Shown: one piece after another, positions 20,533 to 32,375 of the stretch | Numbering within the stretch: the stretch's first letter is position 1 | Layout of the letters: each line of letters starts with the position of its first letter | Origin: Lachnospiraceae bacterium | Lineage (GTDB): Bacteria > Bacillota > Clostridia > Lachnospirales > Lachnospiraceae | Length of the DNA: 37,667 bases | Direction of reading: 5' to 3' | Assembly: GCA_024682555.1 (NCBI GenBank) | Contig: JAIKZD010000011.1 | Span: 1 to 37,667, forward strand | Translations under genes and position numbers: made by a program | Notes under the pieces: generated by a model | The model's database searches: none | The model's input: the letters and a program-made list of their open reading frames with translations, nothing else | What the model was told of the DNA's origin: nothing

Positions 20533-21411
20533 TCAAAGCATTACCAAAAAAGCTATTACCGATATCGCCCCTATCAGGAAACAATAGAAGGCGAAATATT
20601 TGAAATACCTGTTTAATACGATCTTTATCATGAGCTTTACGGCAATGAAACCGATCACCCCCGCAAATATCATTCCGACTATGTAGGAAAGGATATCCGA
20701 ACCCGATATAAGGGACGTATCCACATCCTTTATCTCCATTACCAGTGCACCGAGTATTGCAGGCATGGACATGATAAACGAATACTTGATGGCAAACTTT
20801 TTATCAAATCCGCACAGCATGCAGGCAACTATGGTGGTTCCCGAGCGGGATAAGCCCGGAAGGGTCGCAACACCCTGAGCCGCTCCTGCGCCCACCGCAT
20901 CAAGCCAGGCCGCATCCTTGGGCTTCTTGTGCCCCTCCGCTATATAGTCGGAAAGGATCAGGATAACCCCGGTGCCTATAAGGGAAATGCCGGTAACCAG
21001 CAGATTCATGCTTACAGCATCCACCACCTTCTTTAAAAGGATCCCGATGACGCCTGTTACCGCTGTGGATATGAGCAGCATCACCACGAATTTTTTGTAG
21101 GAATTTGATACGACATTTACGTAATCCTGTTTATCTTTGGCCGTAAGATTTCTGAAAAACCGCACCAGATTGATGCAGCCGTCCTTCACCACTACAAAGA
21201 ACTCGGTTATGAGCCTTATGACATCTCTGTAAAAAGCGATAAAAACAGCAATAAGCGTCGCAACGTGCAGAAGGACATCAAACAGAAGTCCCGTGTCCGT
21301 TTCCACGCCGAACAGATTTTTAATTATCGCAAGATGGCCCGAACTGGATACGGGAAGAAACTCGGTAAGTCCCTGCACTATACCCATGACTATGGCCTGA
21401 AGAACACTCAT
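20533..21411 (-). CDS. uppP: undecaprenyl-diphosphatase (BacA type)
   Basis: This membrane phosphatase recycles undecaprenyl diphosphate to the monophosphate carrier used in peptidoglycan and other glycan assembly; overproduction of the family gives bacitracin resistance. The diagnostic motifs GLTEFLPVSSSGHLAI (residues 14-29) and LPGLSRSGTTI are present, with several hydrophobic helices. The middle segment (about 78-100) is longer and more basic than in E. coli UppP. The ATG at 21411 has GGGAG six bases upstream. A predicted promoter precedes it, so it probably leads the uppP-ftsK-fhs-folD operon. Confidence 0.95.
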   Translation of the reverse strand: MSVLQAIVMGIVQGLTEFLPVSSSGHLAIIKNLFGVETDTGLLFDVLLHVATLIAVFIAFYRDVIRLITEFFVVVKDGCINLVRFFRNLTAKDKQDYVNVVSNSYKKFVVMLLISTAVTGVIGILLKKVVDAVSMNLLVTGISLIGTGVILILSDYIAEGHKKPKDAAWLDAVGAGAAQGVATLPGLSRSGTTIVACMLCGFDKKFAIKYSFIMSMPAILGALVMEIKDVDTSLISGSDILSYIVGMIFAGVIGFIAVKLMIKIVLNRYFKYFAFYCFLIGAISVIAFLVML

Positions 21412-21480: not shown

Positions 21481-21492
21481 ATCTCCCGGTTT
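21462..21492 (-). terminator. possible weak terminator after the glgB-like gene
   Basis: A 6-base stem (AAACCG/CGGTTT) with a 19-base loop and TTTT on the transcribed strand starts at the glgB stop. The stem is short, the loop is large and the element overlaps the predicted uppP promoter, so it is a weak call. Confidence 0.25.
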
Positions 21493-23704
21493 ACATAACT
21501 TCTCCATCGTACCGAAATACCGCGGTCGAAAGGGGTGCAACCTTTATGGTTATGGAGTTGTCTCTCCCGTCACATTCGGAAGCCTTTGAAAACTTGACTC
21601 TGGGATTGACATTGCCTTTTCCGCCGTATTTTTCCCTGTCGGAATTGATTATCTCCTTATATTTTCCGGGATAGGGAACACCCACCTTATGATTCTCGAA
21701 TACAAGATTTGCAAAGTTATGCACGCATAAAAGAGTCTGACCTGCCGATCTTCTCAGGAATATAACGATATTCTCGTTGGCGGATATGTTGTTGATCCAT
21801 TCAAAGCCTTCGGGATCGTTATCCATCTCGTAAAGTGCCGGATTTTCCCTGTATATATGCAAAAGATCCCTTATATAATCATTAAATTCCCTGTTTGCGG
21901 GATTTTCAAGGAGTTCCCAGTCTATTTCCCGATCCTCGCTCCATTCCTCGTTTTCACCGATATCGCATCCCATGAAGCTTAGAAGCTTGCCCGGATGAGT
22001 CACCATGTATCCGTAAGCCGCTTTAAGATTCGCAAATTTACACCATTCATCTCCGGGCATCTTTGAAAACAGGGAGCCTCCTGCGTGAATCACCTCATCA
22101 TGGGAAAAGCTCAGGATGTATTTCTCGGAATAGGCATATACCATGCTGAAAGTAAGCTCGCCGTAATGATGGGTCCTGAAGAAGGGATCGAATCCCAGAT
22201 ATTCCAGCAGATCCTTCGTCCATTCATTGTTCCATTTATAGTCAAAACCAAGTCCCGACTCGTTAAGATCTCCCGTCACATCGGGCCAGGCCGAGGATTC
22301 CTCCGCTATGATTAGGGAACCGTCATCAAGCTTCTTATGAACGGAATTCAGATGTTTGATGAATTCCACAGCCTCAAGGTTTTCATTGCCGCCGTATATA
22401 TTTGCAAGCCACTCTCCGTCGTTTTTCCCGTAATCGAGATACAGCATGGACGAAACCGCATTCACCCTGATACCGTCGGCGTGAAATTCCTTTATCCAGT
22501 ACAGAGCGTTTGCTATGAGATAATTCTTTACCTGGGGGCGGCCGAAATTAAAGATCATGGTCCCGAGGTTCTGATCATACCCTCTTCTCGGATCCAGATG
22601 CTCATAGAGGCAGGTCCCGTCAAAGGAGGAAAGTCCGTGGATATCCTTCGGAAACTGTGCCGGCGCCCAGTCAAGAATGACTCCTATTCCCTTTTGATGC
22701 ATATGATTTATAAAATATTTAAAATCATCCGGAGTTCCGTATCTGCTGGTGGGCGCATAATAACCTATGGTCTGGTAGCCCAAAGAGGCATCATAGGGAT
22801 GCTCCATCACCGGCATGAGTTCGATATGGGTATAACCCATATCCGTAACGTAGTCCGCTATCAGTTCGCTCAGTTCCCTGTAATTGTAGAATTCCCTGCC
22901 GTCCCCGGGCTTCTTAAAGGATCCCGGATGCAGCTCGTATATGGACATGGGCTTATCCAAACCCTGTAGTTCCTTTCTGTTTTCAAGCCACTCATCATCA
23001 TCAAACAGAAAGCTGCTCTCACATACGACGGAAGCGGTCTTCGGACGCAGCTCCGCCCAGAATCCGTAAGGGTCCGACTTAAGGGAAATGTTGTCACCCT
23101 TCAGCTTGAGCTCATATTTATATATCGCCCCGTCCAGGACCCCCGGTATAAAAAGCTCGAAAAGACCGCAGGATTCTATCTTTCTCATCTGGTGCACTCT
23201 TCCGTCCCAGCCGTTAAAATCCCCGACAACGCTGACCCTTACGGCATTGGGTGCCCACACCGCAAAGTTTGTGCCCCGGACTCCGCCGTATTCCATGACA
23301 TGGGCCCCGAGGACCTTGTATATCTCATAATGGATGCCTGCGTTTATCCTTTCTATGTCATCCTTTGTTATGATGGAATCATAGAAATAGGGATCCCTTA
23401 CTATGCTCTCTCTGCCTTTTTTATCTATCACCCGGAAATAATAGCTGTATTTCCATCTTTTGAGTGTCTTGATAAATACGGCATAGAAGCCTTCCTCATC
23501 CGCCATCTCCATGGCGTACTCCTCGGTCCCCTTATTCATCGTAACAACGGCATATACCTTCTTTACTCCCGGAATAAAGGTCTGTATAAGGATCCCGCCG
23601 TTTACGTAATGACCGCCCAGAATGTCATGGGGCTTCTCCTCCTCCGAATATACGACAGCCTCTATCTCGGGCCAGTCCATCATCTTATAAAGCTTTTTAT
23701 TCAT
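21491..23704 (-). CDS. GlgB-like GH13 protein with altered active site (probable pseudo-branching enzyme)
   Basis: The fold matches full-length 1,4-alpha-glucan branching enzymes. It has 737 residues: an N-terminal domain to about 120, a CBM48 (about 140-225), the GH13 barrel and a C-terminal beta domain. Family landmarks include YELHPGSF, ELMPVMEHPYDASLGYQ, GYYAPTSRYGTPDDF and ALYWIKEFHADG. However, the nucleophile Asp of the usual RVDAVASM is Asn (GIRVNAVSSM; Asn415, codon AAT at 22462-22460), and the His of the usual DWVPAHFP is Gln (DWAPAQFP; Gln350). The acid/base Glu (IAEES) and the SHDE motif remain. A normal branching reaction is therefore unlikely; glucan binding may persist. The start is ATG 23704 with GGGGG five bases upstream, overlapping the DUF1015 gene by 8 bases. 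No other glycogen gene is near. Confidence 0.85.
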   Translation of the reverse strand: MNKKLYKMMDWPEIEAVVYSEEEKPHDILGGHYVNGGILIQTFIPGVKKVYAVVTMNKGTEEYAMEMADEEGFYAVFIKTLKRWKYSYYFRVIDKKGRESIVRDPYFYDSIITKDDIERINAGIHYEIYKVLGAHVMEYGGVRGTNFAVWAPNAVRVSVVGDFNGWDGRVHQMRKIESCGLFELFIPGVLDGAIYKYELKLKGDNISLKSDPYGFWAELRPKTASVVCESSFLFDDDEWLENRKELQGLDKPMSIYELHPGSFKKPGDGREFYNYRELSELIADYVTDMGYTHIELMPVMEHPYDASLGYQTIGYYAPTSRYGTPDDFKYFINHMHQKGIGVILDWAPAQFPKDIHGLSSFDGTCLYEHLDPRRGYDQNLGTMIFNFGRPQVKNYLIANALYWIKEFHADGIRVNAVSSMLYLDYGKNDGEWLANIYGGNENLEAVEFIKHLNSVHKKLDDGSLIIAEESSAWPDVTGDLNESGLGFDYKWNNEWTKDLLEYLGFDPFFRTHHYGELTFSMVYAYSEKYILSFSHDEVIHAGGSLFSKMPGDEWCKFANLKAAYGYMVTHPGKLLSFMGCDIGENEEWSEDREIDWELLENPANREFNDYIRDLLHIYRENPALYEMDNDPEGFEWINNISANENIVIFLRRSAGQTLLCVHNFANLVFENHKVGVPYPGKYKEIINSDREKYGGKGNVNPRVKFSKASECDGRDNSITIKVAPLSTAVFRYDGEVM

Positions 23705-24944
23705 TACATCCCCCTTCGATCTCATGAATGTAGAGCCCGCTTCGAAGCTTCGGTTCGAACCAGGTGGATTTCGGGGGCATCAGCCTGTTGGCATCGGCAA
23801 CCCTGAACAGCTCGTGAATGCCCGTAGGATACATGCAGAAAGCGATCCTGCAGTCACTGCCGACTCTTCTTTCAAGCTCGGAAAGCCCCCTGATGCCTCC
23901 CACAAAGTCTATCCTTTTATCGGTCTTGGGATCATTTATGTCAAAAAGAGGCTTCAGTACTTCGTTCTGAAGAACGGCAACGTCAAGGGAATCAACGGGA
24001 TCATCGGGGATCAGTGAAGGATCCGGAGTAAAAAGATACCATTTCCCGTCAAGACAGACGGTGATATCTCCCTTCTTCTCAGGTTTCAAAGCCTTTTCAA
24101 GGGCCGTCACCTGCCCCTTGTCCCTCAGGAAAGCAAGTATTTCCTCCGGACTGTGACCGTTCAGATCCTTAATGACCCTGTTATAATCCATTATCATCAG
24201 CTGGTCATCGGGAAAAAGCACCGAAAGGAAGTAATTGAACTCCTCGGATCCGTTATGATCCTTATATGCTTCTCTTCTCTTAAGCCCAACCTTTACCGCG
24301 GAAGCACATCTGTGATGCCCGTCTGCTATATAGATTTCATTCATGTCATCAAAGGCCTTCCGGACAGCCTTTATATCCCCGGCATCGGAAATGAAGAATC
24401 CCCGGTGCCTGATGCCGTCATCGGAAACAAAATCATAATCGGGGGTCCCCTCTTTGACCCTGTCCACTATGGAATTGATCGTATCATTGCTCTTATAGGC
24501 AAGAAAGATAGGGCCGCTCTGGGCGCTTAAGGCATCTACATGCCTTATCCGGTCTTCTTCCTTGTCGGCCCTGGTATTTTCGTGTTTTCTGATCACATTG
24601 TTAAGATAGTCATCGATGGAACAGACGGCCACAATACCCGTCTGGGTCCTGCCATCCATTGTCAGCTCGTATATATAATAGTTTTCGTTTTCATCCCTGA
24701 CAAAATCGCCTTTTTTTAGCATATCCCGAAACATCCGGGCGGCTTTTTCATATACCTCGTCGGAATAGATGTAAACATCATCGAACTGGGTCTCGGCCCT
24801 GTCTATCCTGAGAAAAGAGTAATCATCATCCTTTACCTTGATCTTTGCCTCTTCACTGCTGTATACATCATAGGGAAGAGCCGCGATCTTACTCTCAAGC
24901 CCTTTTTTGGGTCTTATAGCCTTAAACGGTTTTACTGTTGCCAT
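23697..24944 (-). CDS. DUF1015 family protein (COG4198)
   Basis: The 415-residue protein begins MATVKPFKAIRPKKG and IAALPYDVYSSEEA, the standard DUF1015 N-terminus. The family's most conserved motif, YIADGHHRCASAVKVG, is near the middle. No biochemical role is assigned from sequence. The ADGHHR motif resembles the nucleotide-binding loop of ParB/Srx-fold proteins, some of which are free-serine kinases, and DUF1015 genes commonly sit beside serC-serA in Clostridia (my recollection). Here serCA is the next metabolic operon, 5 kb upstream, beyond an export cassette. The ATG at 24944 has GGAG five bases upstream. It overlaps the glgB-like gene by 8 bases, and a divergent promoter lies upstream. 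Confidence 0.88.
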   Translation of the reverse strand: MATVKPFKAIRPKKGLESKIAALPYDVYSSEEAKIKVKDDDYSFLRIDRAETQFDDVYIYSDEVYEKAARMFRDMLKKGDFVRDENENYYIYELTMDGRTQTGIVAVCSIDDYLNNVIRKHENTRADKEEDRIRHVDALSAQSGPIFLAYKSNDTINSIVDRVKEGTPDYDFVSDDGIRHRGFFISDAGDIKAVRKAFDDMNEIYIADGHHRCASAVKVGLKRREAYKDHNGSEEFNYFLSVLFPDDQLMIMDYNRVIKDLNGHSPEEILAFLRDKGQVTALEKALKPEKKGDITVCLDGKWYLFTPDPSLIPDDPVDSLDVAVLQNEVLKPLFDINDPKTDKRIDFVGGIRGLSELERRVGSDCRIAFCMYPTGIHELFRVADANRLMPPKSTWFEPKLRSGLYIHEIEGGCNE

Positions 24945-25022
24945 TTTTTCTCCATTCAAACTGTTTTTTTCTTATCGTTTCCATAAATAACGATGCCTAT
25001 ATTTTAAGCTACTGCGCCGTTT

Positions 25023-25391: not shown

Positions 25392-27575
25392 TCAAGCATC
25401 GAGTCTCTGCCTCTGCACAAGCTCCGCGAAGAACCCGTCCGCTTCTATGAGTTCATCGTAGGTTCCGTCTTCTATTATCTTTCCGCCATCAAGCACGATT
25501 ATCCTGTCACAGTCCTTTATGGTGCTTAATCTGTGTGCGATCACGATCCTGGTGCACTTTAAGCCTTTTAAGGAATCCGCCACCTTTTTCTGTGTGATAT
25601 TATCAAGGGCGGAGGTTGCCTCATCAAACATCAGTATCTTAGGCTTCGGCGCTACGGCTCTTGCGATCATGAGCCTCTGCTTCTGCCCGCCGGATATTCC
25701 GCCGCTTCCCTCGGATATCATCGTAAACATGCCCATGGGCATCTCCCTGATATCATCGGCCATTCCGGCCATTTCAGCTGCTTCCCACGCATCATCCACG
25801 GTCAGTCCCGGAGCCGATATGACAATATTTTCATAAATGTCTCCCTGAAAAAGCTTTCCGTTCTGGGTCACGGCTCCTATTGACCTTCTCAGCGATTTAA
25901 GATCAAGGCTGTTTATATCCTTGCCGTCATAATAGATCGCCCCCTTCTGCGGCTTCTCAAAACCTAGGAGCAGCCTCATAAGGGTGGACTTTCCGCATCC
26001 TGTTTTTCCCACTATGGCAATGTACTGTCCGGGACGTATCCTTAAGGACAGATCATCAAGGACCAGGGGCATATTCTCGTTGTACCGGAAGGAAATATTG
26101 TTTAACTCAATGCCGCCCGAAAGTTTTGTAACCATCTGCTTGCCCTCGGAGATCTCGGGTACCTCATCGAGAATGGGGCTGACCTGATCGATGACCGGTT
26201 TGATCTGGGCTATATCTATACCGATACCGGCAAGTGCCGAGAAAGCTCCCGATACCATTCCATATGCACTTTGAAATGCATAATACTCTGCCACGGCCAC
26301 ACCGTTTTTCACGGCCAGATAATCAAGGAGCACCGCACCGAGGAGAGTTATGCCCGTGGAGATGACGGGAGCGATCTTTAAAAGGAGGGGAGGATCGTAA
26401 TCAAGCTTTGCCTCCTTTGCGTACAGATTACCCCATCTTGCAAAAGCGCGCTTTTCGGATCCTGATAATCTTATCTTCTGTATGCCGGAAATAAGTGCAA
26501 AGCTCATTCCGCTTTCCTTGGCGGAAAGTTCCATCTGCTCCTTTCTGATCCTCATCTGCAAAAGAACCGTTACCGTCGAGGTAATGACGGTAATAAGTAT
26601 TATGATGATCGACGGTACAACCAGGGCCTTTGCATATTTAAATATCTGCCCTATATATATAAGGGAAAAAACACCCGAAAGAGCCGTGGAAAATACGGAT
26701 GACATAAGCATTGAACAAAGGTTGTTCAGATAGCTCATTTTGGCCGAAAGCTCACCGGCTCCGAAGCGTTTGAAAAAGCCTGCGGGAAGGGACAAAAGCC
26801 TCATCATGGCTGCGGACTCAACGCAGATCTGCATTTTGGTATTAAGCCTCGAAATAACAACGGTCTTTGCCGTGTTAAACAGCATTAAGGACAGACTCAC
26901 ACAGACAAGAAAGACCGCTATGCCCATAAGAGCTCTGTAGCTTTCCGATACTATGACCTTTGAAAAGATGATATTATTGATCTTCGGAAGCAGCATTCCC
27001 GTCAGGGTTACCATCAGTGTGATGATGACAGCGATGGCCACATCATTTTTGGATATGGTCCAGCCGATATATCTTATCAGATCGAGCACATTTATCTTTC
27101 TGAGGGGGAAGGGCTTATAGAATACCAGAGCCGCCTCTTCAAAGTCATCCCTGTTTTCCTTTGTTACCTTTGTCTGTTTACCGGTCTTGGGATCCAGAAA
27201 CACATAACCTCTGACGCCATGGGGAATCAGGGCTATCGGGGTCTCATCGGATCTGCGTACGGTGAGCATTGCGCCGATGGCATCTTCATACCAGTTTTCG
27301 GTAAGACGGACCTCTCTGTACATGATCCCGTTGGGACGCAGAAGAAACTCGAGCTGATCCTCGAATTCCCTGACATTATCGGGTATCTCCCTGGGTTTCA
27401 CGCCATAGTACTTCAAAACGCTCTCTATGGCGTTCTTGGCTATCTGACGTTCATCATTGAGCATCCCGGCGATCCCGGACCCCATTATGGATCCGGCTAT
27501 ATTTATAAAAGAATCTTCAAACAGATCGTTATCGGACTTTTTTCTCTCTTTTATCTGTTCATCAAACCAGCCCAC
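25392..27575 (-). CDS. NHLM-type peptide export ABC transporter, permease/ATPase protein (second component)
   Basis: The 727-residue protein has a soluble N-terminal domain of about 170 residues opening MGWFDEQIKERKK, which is characteristic of the second ABC protein of nitrile-hydratase-leader (NHLM/NHLP) bacteriocin export systems and lacks peptidase residues. A six-helix ABC exporter membrane domain follows (about 170-450). The ATPase domain has Walker A GKTGCGKST (523-531), signature ISGGQKQR, Walker B ILMFDEATSALD and AHRLST, all intact. It starts with GTG at 27575, AAGGA nine bases upstream, 24 bases after the peptidase ABC gene, and probably forms a heterodimer with it in the cell membrane. 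Its own substrate is not evident nearby. Confidence 0.9.
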   Translation of the reverse strand: MGWFDEQIKERKKSDNDLFEDSFINIAGSIMGSGIAGMLNDERQIAKNAIESVLKYYGVKPREIPDNVREFEDQLEFLLRPNGIMYREVRLTENWYEDAIGAMLTVRRSDETPIALIPHGVRGYVFLDPKTGKQTKVTKENRDDFEEAALVFYKPFPLRKINVLDLIRYIGWTISKNDVAIAVIITLMVTLTGMLLPKINNIIFSKVIVSESYRALMGIAVFLVCVSLSLMLFNTAKTVVISRLNTKMQICVESAAMMRLLSLPAGFFKRFGAGELSAKMSYLNNLCSMLMSSVFSTALSGVFSLIYIGQIFKYAKALVVPSIIIILITVITSTVTVLLQMRIRKEQMELSAKESGMSFALISGIQKIRLSGSEKRAFARWGNLYAKEAKLDYDPPLLLKIAPVISTGITLLGAVLLDYLAVKNGVAVAEYYAFQSAYGMVSGAFSALAGIGIDIAQIKPVIDQVSPILDEVPEISEGKQMVTKLSGGIELNNISFRYNENMPLVLDDLSLRIRPGQYIAIVGKTGCGKSTLMRLLLGFEKPQKGAIYYDGKDINSLDLKSLRRSIGAVTQNGKLFQGDIYENIVISAPGLTVDDAWEAAEMAGMADDIREMPMGMFTMISEGSGGISGGQKQRLMIARAVAPKPKILMFDEATSALDNITQKKVADSLKGLKCTRIVIAHRLSTIKDCDRIIVLDGGKIIEDGTYDELIEADGFFAELVQRQRLDA

Positions 27576-27599
27576 TAAAGTTCATCCTTTCAATAGAGA

Positions 27600-29789
27600 T
27601 CAGTCATTTGTAACAAGCGAGGTATAGTAACCGCCCTTTTTATACAGTTCGTCATGAGTACCGCGTTCAACCACCCTGCCTTTATCAAGAACGATTATCT
27701 CATCACAGTCTCTTATGGTACTGAGCCTGTGAGCGACAACTATACAGGTGATCCCCCTGTCTTCTATGGCCTTTACAACCTCAAATTCGGTCTTTGCATC
27801 AAGAGCGGAGGTTGCCTCATCAAGGATTATGATCGTCGGATCCTGGGCAAGGACTCTGGCTATCTCCAGACGCTGCCTCTGACCGCCGGAAAAATCCTTT
27901 CCGCCCTCGGTAAGCCTGTACTGATAGCCTCCGTCACGCATCATTATATCCTCATGGATCCTTGCGTCTCTTGCGGCCATGATCATCTCAAAGTCCTCGA
28001 TGGAGCTGTCCCACATCTTTATGTTATTTGCGATGGTATCCTCAAATATTATGATATCCTGATCGACTACCGCAAGAGATCCGGTAAAAACGCTCCTGTC
28101 TATATCTTCCTGGTTTTTCCCGTCAAAAACTATGCTTCCGGACCAGGGTTTGTAAAGACCCGATATGAGCTTTGCGATGGTTGATTTTCCGCAGCCCGAT
28201 GCTCCGACCAGAGCCACCTTTCCGCCTTTTTTGACGGAAAGACTGAAATCCTTTATCAGGGGCTCGGCAAGCTTTGAATATCCGAAAGTGATGTTTTTCA
28301 TCTCTATCTCACCGGAGAGTTTCCCATACTCGGTATCCTTATCATCCGATATCTCCGGTTCGTCCCTGACAGCCTCGGGATACTGCATGACATCCTCGAT
28401 CCTCTCCATCTGGGTCCTCATTTCCATGATGGTCTGACCCGCACCTATGAGAGAATCCGCCGGCGTCGTAAACAGGGTCAGAAAGCCCTGAAAGGCCGAT
28501 ATCATACCCACCGTAAACTGGCCGTTCATGGTAAGGAACACGCCGAGTATCAGGATAAGATTTCCCGTGATCCCCGATACCATCCCCGGAATGAGTCCGA
28601 GCTCATAATTCATCTTCTGAAATTTTATGTTCTGCATATTAACGGATGCCTGATAGCCTGACCATTTATGGAAAAAACCGTTTTCGGCCCCGCTGCTTTT
28701 TATGGTCTCTATCATCTCGATACCGGAAACGGTGGCTCCGGCCAGTTTTCCCGAATCACGCATCATGACCCTGGTGATATTCACCCTCTTCTCCGAGATT
28801 ATCCTGGACAAAAACAGATTGATAAAAATGGAGAATATGCCCACAAAAGAAAGCATTACACTGTATCTGAGCATGACCACCAGATAGAACACCATCATAA
28901 CGGAATCAAGAAAAAGAGGCGCAACCGTATCTATGAGACTTCCGGCAACAGTGGCATTTGATGACTGGCGCTGCTGGATGTCCCCTGCCATCCTCTGCGA
29001 AAAGAAGTCCATCGGAAGTCTCAGTACCTTCCACATATAGGATGTATTTCCCACTGCCGCAAATTTACCGTTGATCCTTAAGGAACAGATAGTCTGTATC
29101 CACAGTACCGTGATCTGTATGACAGAAAAAACCGCAAAGAAGATAAAAAAAGGCGTAACAAGACCCGGTGAGTGGTTTGTGAGAAGCACATCGATAAATA
29201 TCCTGTTAAGCACGGGTGAGATGAGTTCCATAAGATGAGTCAGTACCATTGTTACCGCAACAAAAATAACAGCGGTCTTTGCGCCCTTTAATCTTTTTAA
29301 CGCAAATTCCACCACGCTCTTCTTTTTGCCGCCGGGTTCAAAGCCTTCTTCCGGTTCAAACATCAGACAGATGCCGGTAAAGGATCTGTCAAACTCCTCT
29401 TTGCTGATGACAATGCTTCCCCTTGCGGGGTCGTTTAAGAACACCTTATTGCCCTTCACTCCGTTCATGACCACAAAGTGATTAAACTCCCAGTGCACTA
29501 TGCACGGAAATTCACCCTCTTCGTAAAGAGTTTCCGGCTCCACTCTGTATCCGTTCGCGGAAAGGCCGTAACTCCTTGCGGCAAGAAGTATGTTCTTTGC
29601 ATTCGAACCGTCCCGTGAAACTCCGCAGTCGGATCTCACCTGTTCAAGAGGGATCCACCTGTCATAATAGGCAAGTATCATGGTAAGACAGGCGGCGCCG
29701 CATTCAAGGGCCTCCATCTGCATGACCACCGGGACTTTTGCTTTTCCGTTTTTGACCGGTTTTTTAATCTCTTCTTTTTCAGACATCAT
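27600..29789 (-). CDS. NHLM-type peptidase-containing ABC exporter (C39 peptidase-permease-ATPase)
   Basis: The 729-residue protein has three parts. The N-terminal C39 peptidase has its catalytic set intact: oxyanion Gln24, Cys30 in MEALECGAACLTM, His104 in WEFNHFVVMNG and Asp120 in LNDPARG. Such peptidases cut leader peptides after Gly-Gly/Gly-Ala during export. A six-helix membrane domain (about 165-440) and an ATPase follow, with Walker A GASGCGKST (529-537), signature SGGQRQR, Walker B IIILDEATSALD and AHRLST. Start could be ATG 29789 or the next codon 29786, which has better spacing from AAGGA. It follows the HlyD-like stub by 7 bases. No precursor peptide or maturation enzyme is encoded next to it. 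Confidence 0.92.
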   Translation of the reverse strand: MMSEKEEIKKPVKNGKAKVPVVMQMEALECGAACLTMILAYYDRWIPLEQVRSDCGVSRDGSNAKNILLAARSYGLSANGYRVEPETLYEEGEFPCIVHWEFNHFVVMNGVKGNKVFLNDPARGSIVISKEEFDRSFTGICLMFEPEEGFEPGGKKKSVVEFALKRLKGAKTAVIFVAVTMVLTHLMELISPVLNRIFIDVLLTNHSPGLVTPFFIFFAVFSVIQITVLWIQTICSLRINGKFAAVGNTSYMWKVLRLPMDFFSQRMAGDIQQRQSSNATVAGSLIDTVAPLFLDSVMMVFYLVVMLRYSVMLSFVGIFSIFINLFLSRIISEKRVNITRVMMRDSGKLAGATVSGIEMIETIKSSGAENGFFHKWSGYQASVNMQNIKFQKMNYELGLIPGMVSGITGNLILILGVFLTMNGQFTVGMISAFQGFLTLFTTPADSLIGAGQTIMEMRTQMERIEDVMQYPEAVRDEPEISDDKDTEYGKLSGEIEMKNITFGYSKLAEPLIKDFSLSVKKGGKVALVGASGCGKSTIAKLISGLYKPWSGSIVFDGKNQEDIDRSVFTGSLAVVDQDIIIFEDTIANNIKMWDSSIEDFEMIMAARDARIHEDIMMRDGGYQYRLTEGGKDFSGGQRQRLEIARVLAQDPTIIILDEATSALDAKTEFEVVKAIEDRGITCIVVAHRLSTIRDCDEIIVLDKGRVVERGTHDELYKKGGYYTSLVTND

Positions 29790-29796
29790 ATATCCT

Positions 29797-30033
29797 TCAA
29801 TTGATCAGATAACTTATGGGATGTATCATTTCGGTAACACCGTCTGCATTCTGTACGGGGATCGTGCCCAGAGCGGCCCAGATGATGACCCCTGCAAACA
29901 AAAGAATGATCCCTGCCATGAACAGCCATACCCCGCTTGGGACAACCCTGATATAGTCATCCAGCTGTTCCGGCGAGGAAATCCTCTCCATGCTTTTTTC
30001 TCTGAAAATACCTTTGTTGTTTTTTTCAGCCAT
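29797..30033 (-). CDS. truncated HlyD-like secretion-partner stub (single transmembrane helix)
   Basis: The 78-residue protein opens MAEKNNKGIFREKSMERISS and continues PEQLDDYIRVV, the recognisable N-terminus of the HlyD-type secretion protein of NHLM export systems. One hydrophobic helix follows (about 34-56, VWLFMAGIILLFAGVIIWAA). The protein then stops within about 20 residues (VTEMIHPISYLIN), where the family normally has its periplasmic-type beta/lipoyl portion. There is no room for that part before the next gene, so it is deleted, not frameshifted. The start is ATG 30033 with GGAGA six bases upstream; longer in-frame translation to 30126 lies in the serA terminator region. It may still be expressed as a small membrane protein. 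Confidence 0.8.
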   Translation of the reverse strand: MAEKNNKGIFREKSMERISSPEQLDDYIRVVPSGVWLFMAGIILLFAGVIIWAALGTIPVQNADGVTEMIHPISYLIN

Positions 30034-30060
30034 GCGGATTCTCCATTCATGCTTCAACTG

Positions 30061-30083
30061 AAAAGGCAGGTCAAAACCTGCCC
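30061..30083 (-). terminator. hairpin terminator after serA
   Basis: On the minus strand GGCAGGT/ACCTGCC forms a perfect 7-base stem with a 4-base loop, followed by TTTT. It starts about 47 bases after the serA stop and lies just before the ribosome binding site of the HlyD-like stub, so it should limit read-through from the amino-acid operon into the export cassette. Confidence 0.6.
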
Positions 30084-30129
30084 GTTCACATTTACAAACG
30101 GACAGCCGTGAAAGCCGACCGCTCAAAAA

Positions 30130-31293
30130 TTATTTTACAACTCTGACTCTTATAACGCCGTCGATAGCCTGGAGTTTTCCGACTATCTCGTCGGTGATCT
30201 CGGATTCGACGTCCATCATCGTATAGGCATAATCACCTTTGGATTTGTTTATCATGTCGGTAATGTTGATACCAAGGTCACCGAAATTAGCCGTAAACTT
30301 TGTGATCATGTTGGCTATGTTCCTGTGATGTATGGCAACTCTTCCCGCCGCCTGGCAGACACCCATGTCGGCCTTGGGGAAGTTGACGGAATTATTGATA
30401 TTCCCGTTCTCGAGATAATCCATCAGTTCCTTGACCGCCATCTTGGCACAGTTATCCTCGGATTCCTCCGTTGAAGCTCCGAGATGAGGTATCACTATGC
30501 ATCCCTCCGCTCCCGCGGTTGTGGGATTCGGAAAATCCGATACGTACTTTCTTATCTTTCCGCTCTTTATCCCTTCAAGTACAGCCTCTTCATCAACCAG
30601 AAGATCCCTTGCAAAGTTAAGGAGAATGACTCCGTCCTTCATCCTGCTTATGGCTTCTTTGTTGATGGTATTTCTGGTGGAGTCCATGAGAGGAACATGG
30701 ATAGTGATGATATCGCACTCCTCATATATCTCCTCCACATTCAGCACGTGCTTGATGTCTCTTGAAAGATTCCAGGCTGCATCCACGGAAATATAGGGAT
30801 CGTAGCCGCATACATCCATTCCCATGTGTTTGGCGGCGTTTGCAACTCTCACACCGATGGCTCCGAGACCTATGATGCCTATCTTCTTGTTCATGATCTC
30901 CGTGCCCGCAAATTTCTTCTTTTCCTTTTCGGCAGCCTTGGCAATGTTCTCATCATCCTTGTTTGCCTTGACCCACTCTATGCCTCCCACAACGTCTCTT
31001 GACGCAAGGAGCATTCCGGCAAAAACAAGCTCTTTTACCCCGTTGGCATTTGCTCCGGGTGTGTTGAAAACGACTATGCCTCTTTTTGCACACTCCTCAA
31101 GGGGGATATTGTTAACCCCTGCACCGGCCCTTGCGATGGCAAGCAGACCGTCCGGGAACTCCATGTCATGCATGGATGCGGATCTTACGAGGACGCCCTG
31201 CGCCTCGTTTATATCCTCTGTTTTTTCAAAATTGCCCGTAAATTTCTCGATACCTACTGCTGATATATCATTTAAACATGCATATTTAAACAT
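30130..31293 (-). CDS. serA: D-3-phosphoglycerate dehydrogenase
   Basis: This enzyme oxidises 3-phosphoglycerate to 3-phosphohydroxypyruvate with NAD+, the first step of serine synthesis. The 387-residue short form has a catalytic domain, the NAD fold IGIIGLGAIGVRVANAAKHMG, the substrate Arg in LLNFARDLLVDEE, the catalytic His in CIVIPHLGASTEESE, and a C-terminal ACT domain (about residues 320-387, ending GKLQAIDGVIRVRVV) likely to sense serine. The extra intervening domain of the long form is absent. Its ATG shares one base with the serC stop (TAATG), giving tight coupling. Confidence 0.96.
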   Translation of the reverse strand: MFKYACLNDISAVGIEKFTGNFEKTEDINEAQGVLVRSASMHDMEFPDGLLAIARAGAGVNNIPLEECAKRGIVVFNTPGANANGVKELVFAGMLLASRDVVGGIEWVKANKDDENIAKAAEKEKKKFAGTEIMNKKIGIIGLGAIGVRVANAAKHMGMDVCGYDPYISVDAAWNLSRDIKHVLNVEEIYEECDIITIHVPLMDSTRNTINKEAISRMKDGVILLNFARDLLVDEEAVLEGIKSGKIRKYVSDFPNPTTAGAEGCIVIPHLGASTEESEDNCAKMAVKELMDYLENGNINNSVNFPKADMGVCQAAGRVAIHHRNIANMITKFTANFGDLGINITDMINKSKGDYAYTMMDVESEITDEIVGKLQAIDGVIRVRVVK

Positions 31294-32375
31294 TACGCAT
31301 TCTCCTCTTCGAATTTTCTCATAAACGAAACGAGGGCTTCAACTCCCTCGACGGGCATTGCATTGTAGATCGATGCCCTCATTCCGCCCACGCTCCTGTG
31401 GCCCTTTAAGCTCACAAGACCGTTTTCCGCAGCTTCCTTGACAAACTTTGCATCAAGCTCATCGTTTCCGGTGATAAAAGGTACATTCATGAGAGATCTG
31501 GAATCCTTTTCAACCGTTCCCTTAAAGAGGACCGAACTGTCAAGAAAATCATAAAGGATCTTTGCCTTTTTCTCATTCCTGTCACGCATGGCCGTAAGTC
31601 CGCCCATCTTCTCTATCCACTTAAACACCTTGCCGCAGATATAGATCCCGTATGCGGGAGGGGTGTTATACAGTGAATCCGCATCGGCGTGAGTCTTATA
31701 CTTAAGCATAGTGGGAGTTCCTTCAAGTGTATCCTCGGTTATCAGATCTTCTCTGATGATGACGATAACAACACCTGCGGGTCCGATATTCTTCTGTACA
31801 CCACCGTATATGAGGCCGTACTTTGTAACATCCACGGGCTCCGAAAGGAAGCAGGAGGATACATCGGCTACCAGGGTCTTTCCCTTGGTGTTGGGAAGGG
31901 TCTTAAACTTGGTGCCGTATATCGTATTGTTCTCACAGATGTATACATAGTCTGCATCGGGTGAAACAGGAAGATCCGAACAGTCGGGAATATATGAGAA
32001 GGTCTTATCTTCCGAAGAGGCTATGGCATTTGCTTTTCCGTAGATCTGGGCTTCTTTCCAGGCCTTCTTGGCCCACTGTCCCGTAATGATATAATCCGCA
32101 ACCCTGTTCTTCATGAGGTTCATGGGGATCATGGCAAACTGCTGGCTGGCACCTCCCTGTAAAAACAGGACCCTGTAATTATCCGGGATACCCATAAGGG
32201 ATCTCAGATCCTTTTCCGCCTCCTTGATGATCGCATCATAGGTCTTTGAACGATGGCTCATCTCCATAACGGACATTCCGCTGCCTCTGTAATCAAGCAT
32301 CTCATCCGCTGCTTCCCTCAGAACTTCCTCGGGCAATACGGCAGGTCCTGCCGAAAAGTTGTACACTCTGCTCAA
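31293..32375 (-). CDS. serC: phosphoserine aminotransferase
   Basis: This PLP enzyme makes phosphoserine from 3-phosphohydroxypyruvate and glutamate. The 360 residues begin SRVYNFSAGPAVLPEEVL and carry the PLP lysine in YGGVQKNIGPAGV, LFLQGGASQQFAMIPMN, and the C-terminal HRSVGGMRASIYNAMP. The start is TTG at 32375, with AGGAGG nine bases upstream; no ATG exists at the conserved N-terminus. The ribosome binding site sits in the loop of a small inverted repeat (32378-32398), which with the TTG start may tune expression. serB is not in the window. Confidence 0.96.
   Translation of the reverse strand: MSRVYNFSAGPAVLPEEVLREAADEMLDYRGSGMSVMEMSHRSKTYDAIIKEAEKDLRSLMGIPDNYRVLFLQGGASQQFAMIPMNLMKNRVADYIITGQWAKKAWKEAQIYGKANAIASSEDKTFSYIPDCSDLPVSPDADYVYICENNTIYGTKFKTLPNTKGKTLVADVSSCFLSEPVDVTKYGLIYGGVQKNIGPAGVVIVIIREDLITEDTLEGTPTMLKYKTHADADSLYNTPPAYGIYICGKVFKWIEKMGGLTAMRDRNEKKAKILYDFLDSSVLFKGTVEKDSRSLMNVPFITGNDELDAKFVKEAAENGLVSLKGHRSVGGMRASIYNAMPVEGVEALVSFMRKFEEENA

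Follow-up and report, generated by a model that had tools for sequence, protein, structure and literature searches.

Why does an intact, full-length gene for a glycogen branching enzyme stay in a genome when its product has lost the catalytic nucleophile? This question is raised by glgB2 of a Lachnospiraceae bacterium (genome G000), which lies in a stretch of 37,667 nt (contig JAIKZD010000011.1, assembly GCA_024682555.1), referred to as a whole as the window. The first-pass annotation of this DNA had proposed a conserved pseudo-enzyme instead of a recently decayed gene, and we followed this proposal through the genus, the family and the available literature.

The glgB2 frame is open and encodes 744 amino acids from the first ATG or 737 from codon 8 (Table 1). 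A GGGGG stretch is found a few bases upstream of the codon-8 ATG, and at this codon ATGAATAA and the stop of the DUF1015 gene overlap by 8 bases. We use the 744-aa numbering throughout; the residue numbers of the first-pass annotation (Asp345 etc.) match a start at codon 8. The protein has the complete GlgB architecture of GlgB_N, CBM48, GH13 and Alpha-amylase_C, and its NCBIfam name is 1,4-alpha-glucan branching protein GlgB, with 860 bits against a cut-off of 741. It does not belong to the isoamylases, scoring as GlgB far above GlgX/isoamylase, and the best solved relative is PDB 5gqw (E 2e-198). An AlphaFold model of the protein (P0001, 8-row alignment) reached a mean pLDDT of 68.9 with active-site loops below 50, and we draw no structural argument from this low-confidence model.

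Table 1. Features of the window around glgB2, with residues in the numbering of the 744-aa form
Feature	Position	Strand	Remarks
glgB2	21491..23725	-	GlgB homologue, full length, altered active site; start probably at codon 8 (23704)
GlgB_N domain of glgB2	23387..23674	-	residues 1-117 part: 29 invariant positions, every change common to sister G018
CBM48 of glgB2	23063..23311	-	residues 118-224 part: 42 invariant positions, every change common to G018
Alpha-amylase_C (C-terminal beta domain) of glgB2	21509..21799	-	
W315L (SWGYQ to SLGYQ)	22781..22783	-	among the sites most eroded in other altered rows (0.97)
H357Q, region I	22655..22657	-	CAG; CAT in G018 and G017
H384, P385, W387 (conserved) to D, Q, L	22565..22576	-	
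D422N, nucleophile (415 from codon 8)	22460..22462	-	AAT; GAT in G018 and G017
E475, general acid/base	22301..22303	-	kept
M500, G501, M503, N504 (conserved) to N, E, T, K	22214..22228	-	
H542-D543, region IV	22097..22102	-	kept
K549 (conserved lysine) to Gly	22079..22081	-	
DUF1015 gene	23697..24959	-	overlaps likely glgB2 start; frequent glgB2 neighbour in the family
uppP/bacA	20533..21411	-	downstream neighbour in the genus
serA and serC	30130..32375	-	upstream part of the locus

Within this intact frame, the motifs read GIRVNAVSSM, DWAPAQFP and SLGYQ, and D422N, H357Q and W315L are the three changes at the nine catalytic sites that we checked. Region-I Asp352, Arg420, Glu475, His542 and Asp543 are kept, which leaves the GlgB catalytic triad (Asp nucleophile, Glu acid/base, Asp stabiliser) incomplete through D422N, with E475 and D543 in place. 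The AAT and CAG codons, the drift in SWGYQ, the persistence of the other active-site residues and the full-length frame with its CBM48 had all been described in the first-pass annotation, and every one of these readings was confirmed. A pseudoenzyme is recognized by the loss of catalytic residues from a protein with intact frame and domains, and this applies to the window gene and to its family. Judged from the residues that remain (Glu475, His542, Asp543), some residual activity is conceivable. G000 is a metagenome-assembled genome, and its 159 contigs and estimated contamination of 5.84 % might point to an assembly or sequencing artefact. However, 17 conserved-site changes in one domain, an open frame and a kept gene order are unlike base-calling errors, and we regard an artefact as extremely unlikely.

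The gene order serC-serA-DUF1015-glgB2-uppP-ftsK-fhs is kept in the congeners that were fetched with enough flank, and the glgB2 copies of the genus are therefore orthologues. Between serA and DUF1015, the window additionally carries two NHLP-type bacteriocin export ABC transporter genes (25392-29789, minus strand; one with a C39 peptidase), an insert that is absent at the same place in the sister species G018. A 109-aa ORF beside them (29797-30126, minus strand) has one hydrophobic segment and no Pfam match; at a guess from its look, it may be a truncated membrane-fusion-type partner.

The genus set comprised 37 genomes, 31 of which gave a glgB2 match, the window genome counted. In 27 of these 31, GlgB2 has the canonical residue at all catalytic sites covered, a few copies being partial, and the two nearest relatives, with 79 % and 78 % identity, have both Asp and His. 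Within the genus set, the Asn/Gln/Leu combination is private to the window species, which is represented by a single known genome. The Asn/Gln pair is thus ruled out as a clade marker. The first-pass annotation had named Asp in relatives, pointing to a single recent mutation, as a refuting observation: for this pair the relatives do have Asp, yet a single mutation is ruled out by the 17 conserved GH13 sites changed on the window lineage. Besides G000, three further genomes of the genus have a non-canonical GlgB2. That of G028 combines W to L, H to C, Asn at the nucleophile site, E to A and D to E in a gene that is in two pieces and possibly interrupted, and the pair G001/G007 shares Lys in place of Asp543 together with changes in the SWGYQ region. 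The GlgB2 tree and a tree of DUF1015 and UppP agree on three separate altered lineages in the genus: G000 beside canonical G018, G028 beside canonical G029, and G001 with G007.

In 6 of the 37 genomes glgB2 was not found, two of these being less than 80 % complete. Three of the six (L313, L314 and L315) have serA, DUF1015 and uppP in order, with a gap of ~0.9-1.0 kb between DUF1015 and uppP and no glgB2 match. The role of GlgB2 is thus dispensable, the gene being missing from these three congeners although the rest of the locus is kept. Such absences, together with changes that are private to G000, are in line with a recent loss of function, in which glgB2 would be redundant with GlgB1, its catalytic site would be decaying and the whole gene would be heading to loss. 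The same reading is favoured by a dN/dS above background on the window branch, estimated with codon models in a custom script whose 2ΔlnL tests are uncorrected and whose single omegas are approximate owing to saturated long branches. Using five species (651 codons, the alignment ending before most of the C domain), the G000 branch had a dN/dS of 0.080 vs 0.047 (2ΔlnL 5.6), and omega = 1 was worse by 36 lnL. Larger species sets gave 0.12-0.14, omega = 1 being worse by 13 and 7.6 lnL; the estimates, which vary with species set and codons, span 0.08-0.14 for a single branch on which the time before and after the loss is mixed.

Split by domain, the significant rise was restricted to GH13, which argues against decay of the whole gene. 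For GH13 alone, the G000 branch reached 0.113 vs 0.045 with five species (2ΔlnL 12.2) and 0.130 vs 0.041 with six (2ΔlnL 13.2), and the rise of sister G018 in the six-species set was non-significant (2ΔlnL 2.1). Outside GH13, the G000 values were 0.031 vs 0.034 for five species, where most of the C domain falls outside the alignment, and 0.062 vs 0.026 for six species including the C domain (2ΔlnL 1.5, non-significant); CBM48 and C alone gave 0.093 vs 0.027 (six species, 2ΔlnL 3.0). Here the sister, with its intact site, was raised as much (0.10 vs 0.021, six species, 2ΔlnL 4.6). The dN/dS excess that separates the window gene from G018 therefore sits in GH13. For the other altered congeners, the omega of 0.04 for G028 comes from a saturated branch, and the omega of the G001+G007 stem ran to the bound and was then fixed at 1.

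A test of positions that are invariant in 20 canonical congeners gave the same picture. G000 has changes at 24 of 187 such positions in GH13 and at 1 of 42, 3 of 29 and 5 of 38 in the CBM48, N and C parts, respectively; the corresponding numbers for G018 are 5, 2, 3 and 5. With 24 vs 5 of 187 positions (Fisher p = 3e-4), the change in the GH13 domain of the window gene is beyond chance, and conserved sites outside GH13 show no excess over the sister. Counting only those G000 changes that are absent from G018, 21 of 187 fall in GH13 vs 3 of 109 elsewhere (p = 0.013), and in the family-wide conserved-site set 17 GH13 changes are specific to the window lineage. The sites changed in the window gene are also those most eroded in the 34 other altered rows (mean 0.68 vs 0.27 elsewhere in GH13, p = 5e-7). 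On this single branch with its mixture of pre-loss and post-loss time, the loss is centred on the active site, and general decay is not the pattern. The proposal of a pseudo-enzyme and not recent decay thus stands as far as lost catalytic residues in an intact frame and signs of purifying selection are concerned, and falls short in that the Asn/Gln pair is not clade-wide.

To see how widespread altered forms are, the G007 protein was searched against 299 family genomes, and 147 rows among the matches listed were examined. A few genomes gave two rows, and the deeper-branching rows of four such genomes (L201, L204, L209 and L211, all canonical) may be GlgB1-type, one of these rows (G128:C264) being also the GlgB1 match of its genome. 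Judged at the nine sites, 29 of the 147 rows among the matches listed were non-canonical, and no internal stop was found in the 152 family matches taken. In the tree set of 172 rows, the 29 are joined by L041, L042 and L087, which came from other searches, and by the four altered genus rows. It thus contains 36 non-canonical rows, 34 of which lack one or more of the three catalytic acids; the exceptions are L126 and L202. L041 and L042, from uncultured Eubacterium MAGs, are GlgB-like, have Lys at the nucleophile site and a lost SWGYQ, and sit on a very long branch. A GlgB2-like gene with 45 % identity to that of the window was also seen in L038 (UBA6817), a record titled Candidatus Marinimicrobia, and possibly reflects a mislabelled or contaminated MAG or a transfer. 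Searching 397 genomes across the family with a DNA pattern for Asn at the nucleophile site resulted in 20 matches in 19 genomes (backward control: 10 matches), three of them in GlgB genes, namely L087, L092 (the window gene) and L093. Other altered forms escaped this pattern, as many carry a residue other than Asn at the site or differ in the residue that follows.

Counting changes of state between canonical and altered forms, we obtained 8 from the fast tree of whole proteins, of which starred branches force 7, and 22 from the non-GH13 domains, of which 10 are forced. A DUF1015+SerA+SerC tree of 48 rows, 23 of them altered, gave 11 (7 forced). We estimate that about 7-10 or more state changes are forced, an approximate figure since the star values come from quick methods. 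The number of origins is uncertain, since FastTree unites 30 altered rows in one group in the whole-protein tree. Part of this group is probably due to long-branch attraction, which we suspect because G001 and G007, placed in the window genus by their neighbour genes, are drawn into it. A single ancient clade of non-catalytic paralogues is not favoured, as the neighbour-gene trees set altered and canonical forms side by side.

We then compared 35 altered rows (L126 and L202 included; L087, truncated at a contig end, excluded) with 129 canonical rows, each canonical row being left out in turn. Conserved columns numbered 119 in GH13, 29 in CBM48, 10 in the C domain and 7 in GlgB_N, few for the latter two. 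Mean substitution at conserved sites was 0.315 in GH13, 0.065 in CBM48, 0.022 in C and 0.012 in GlgB_N for the altered rows, against 0.011, 0.010, 0.012 and 0.016, respectively, for the canonical ones. In each of the 35 altered rows, erosion was strongest in GH13. Likewise, the ratio of altered-canonical to canonical-canonical divergence was highest for GH13 (1.56), followed by CBM48 (1.17), C (1.08) and N (1.01). GlgB_N and the C domain thus remain at the level of the canonical rows, and CBM48 shows mild erosion.

Two genera yielded altered copies only. GlgB2 was detected in 18 of 19 genomes of genus g70, and all 18 copies have other residues in place of the SWGYQ Trp and the Asp of region IV; the five copies found in genus g15 all show replacement of the nucleophile and of this Asp. 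These proteins are strongly constrained: dN/dS was 0.075 in g70 (9 of the 18 copies; omega = 1 worse by 1483 lnL), 0.041 in g15 (omega = 1 worse by 881 lnL) and ~0.10 for the G001/G007 tips (omega = 1 worse by 152 lnL). In g70, g15 and G001/G007, selection has therefore acted on these proteins after their active site had changed. As these lineages have stayed altered and constrained through many speciations, we consider a recent loss of function on the way to gene loss unlikely for the window gene as well. The pseudoenzyme idea, which does not hold for a clade-wide Asn/Gln pair, holds on this wider scale, with active-site residues lost in many Lachnospiraceae. Recurrent loss with the other domains kept suggests a job that does not need catalysis.

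A further explanation is that GlgB2 is a diverged enzyme which kept or gained another catalytic activity, such as weak transfer, hydrolysis or a new chemistry. The window protein does keep Glu475, His542 and Asp543, the nucleophile site is still acidic in 16 of the 18 g70 copies, and none of the three catalytic acids is missing from L126 or L202. On the other hand, at least one acid is missing in 34 of the 36 non-canonical rows, in varied combinations, and no common new catalytic set was seen. Loss of D422 or D543 also takes away essentials of the retaining GH13 mechanism. We therefore judge a diverged enzyme to be improbable.

Many GlgB2 proteins (e.g. L006 and L109) have a variable tail behind the C domain, up to ~190 aa long (314 aa in one case) and mostly with 20-50 % Lys+Arg; it is absent from the GlgB2 of the window, G001, G007 and G028. 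A basic C-terminal tail as a sign of an active GlgB2 was ruled out, with tails of at least 20 aa in 19 of 33 altered vs 43 of 56 canonical rows, a canonical count in which loci occur in duplicate. Regarding the position of the gene, DUF1015 adjoins glgB2 at 18 of 29 altered and 10 of 12 canonical loci, and serA without DUF1015 is nearby at three altered and one canonical locus. Linkage to serA or DUF1015 was not found at 8 of the 29 altered loci, some of them near contig ends, and 1 of the 12 canonical loci, nor at L222, a further contig-cut locus.

The check for a second, canonical glgB suggested in the first-pass annotation was successful: GlgB1 of the window genome (G000:C80:41721-43610) has all nine catalytic sites intact. 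Its alignment to the window protein begins at residue 116 of the latter, so GlgB1 lacks the GlgB_N part. Of the 34 genomes with an altered GlgB2, 30 had one GlgB1 locus each checked, and all 30 loci were canonical. Among the remaining genomes, G050 and G045 gave a putative GlgB1 match, the match of G001 is partial (L055) and canonical where covered, and a separate GlgB1 was not found in G084. The GlgB2 of G084 (L087/L222, G084:C4) has the nucleophile Asp to Asn exchange as its only change among the sites covered.

Taken together, the window gene probably encodes a pseudo-branching enzyme, and GlgB2 would have a second, non-catalytic role in many Lachnospiraceae as a recurrently evolved partner of canonical GlgB1. 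Many members of the family combine a canonical GlgB1 with a longer GlgB2 (GlgB_N, CBM48, GH13 and C, often with a Lys/Arg-rich tail), the latter usually encoded in a serC-serA-DUF1015-glgB2 locus. With branching supplied by GlgB1, the active site of GlgB2 would be free to erode, and it has indeed eroded repeatedly, with purifying selection on the rest of the protein. The second role would probably be alpha-glucan binding, by which GlgB2 could position or tune GlgB1 or other Glg enzymes on glycogen, and it would depend on GlgB_N, CBM48, the C domain and the barrel scaffold. The window gene would be a recent instance, altered after the split from sister species G018. The lack of branching activity, the binding of glucan and the partnership with GlgB1 are what we infer from these patterns. 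A conserved CBM48 is no proof of binding, since the CBM48 of the plant isoamylase ISA1 lacks a glucan-binding site (PMC12510319).

In practical terms, annotation of a Lachnospiraceae gene as branching enzyme is no assurance that its product branches glycogen, as the window protein scores above the curated GlgB cut-off without a nucleophile. GH13 pseudoenzymes as such are already known, and the interest of GlgB2 lies in the recurrence: bacteria provide several independent repeats of a glucan enzyme with an altered active site, one of them fresh and with a sister species that is still canonical. Because this sister keeps the canonical site, the retention of such enzymes can be tested by comparing orthologues.

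Compared with known systems, the window GlgB2 has the whole domain architecture in common with GlgB (PDB 5gqw; N1 + CBM48), but is without the nucleophile Asp, the region-I His, the SWGYQ Trp and other conserved GH13 residues. Two glgB genes per genome have been described before (PMC5716241; PMC10395257). The rumen bacterium Butyrivibrio hungatei MB2003 has glgB1 and glgB2, two CBM48-GH13 branching enzymes of 663 and 824 aa, a pair that resembles GlgB1 and GlgB2 by its description; both are annotated as branching enzymes, and the excerpted text of that paper mentions no loss of catalytic residues (PMC5716241). Searches of the open-licence PMC literature found, by title or abstract, no report of a pseudo- or non-catalytic bacterial branching enzyme.

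The nearest described parallel, by analogy, is the plant pair ISA1/ISA2, and GlgB2 itself is not an isoamylase. As a GH13 paralogue without catalysis, ISA2 binds to ISA1, and the polymer changes when ISA2 is lost, even if ISA1 has no activity; why a non-catalytic isoamylase stays under selection is described there as not understood (PMC12510319). Like GlgB2, it is a paralogue of a GH13 glucan enzyme that has lost catalytic residues including the nucleophile and is selected beside an active paralogue (PMC12510319). The two differ in that ISA2 is a homologue of plant debranching enzymes and has been non-catalytic since the common ancestor of the Chloroplastida (PMC12510319), whereas GlgB2 is a bacterial branching enzyme with several separate losses. 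Moreover, ISA2 binds its active paralogue, whereas for GlgB2 the known link is a canonical GlgB1 gene in the same genome. ISA2 changes the glucan without catalysis of its own (PMC12510319), and for GlgB2 we draw this parallel by analogy. It is possible, and we put it forward tentatively, that GlgB2 is to bacteria what ISA2 is to plants and arose many times over, as a branching-enzyme paralogue without catalysis that would bind glycogen in a regulatory or scaffold complex with GlgB1, the ancestral active GlgB2 already having had this second role. Sister species with an active or an altered orthologue at the same locus would then offer a series for testing why dead glucan enzymes are retained.
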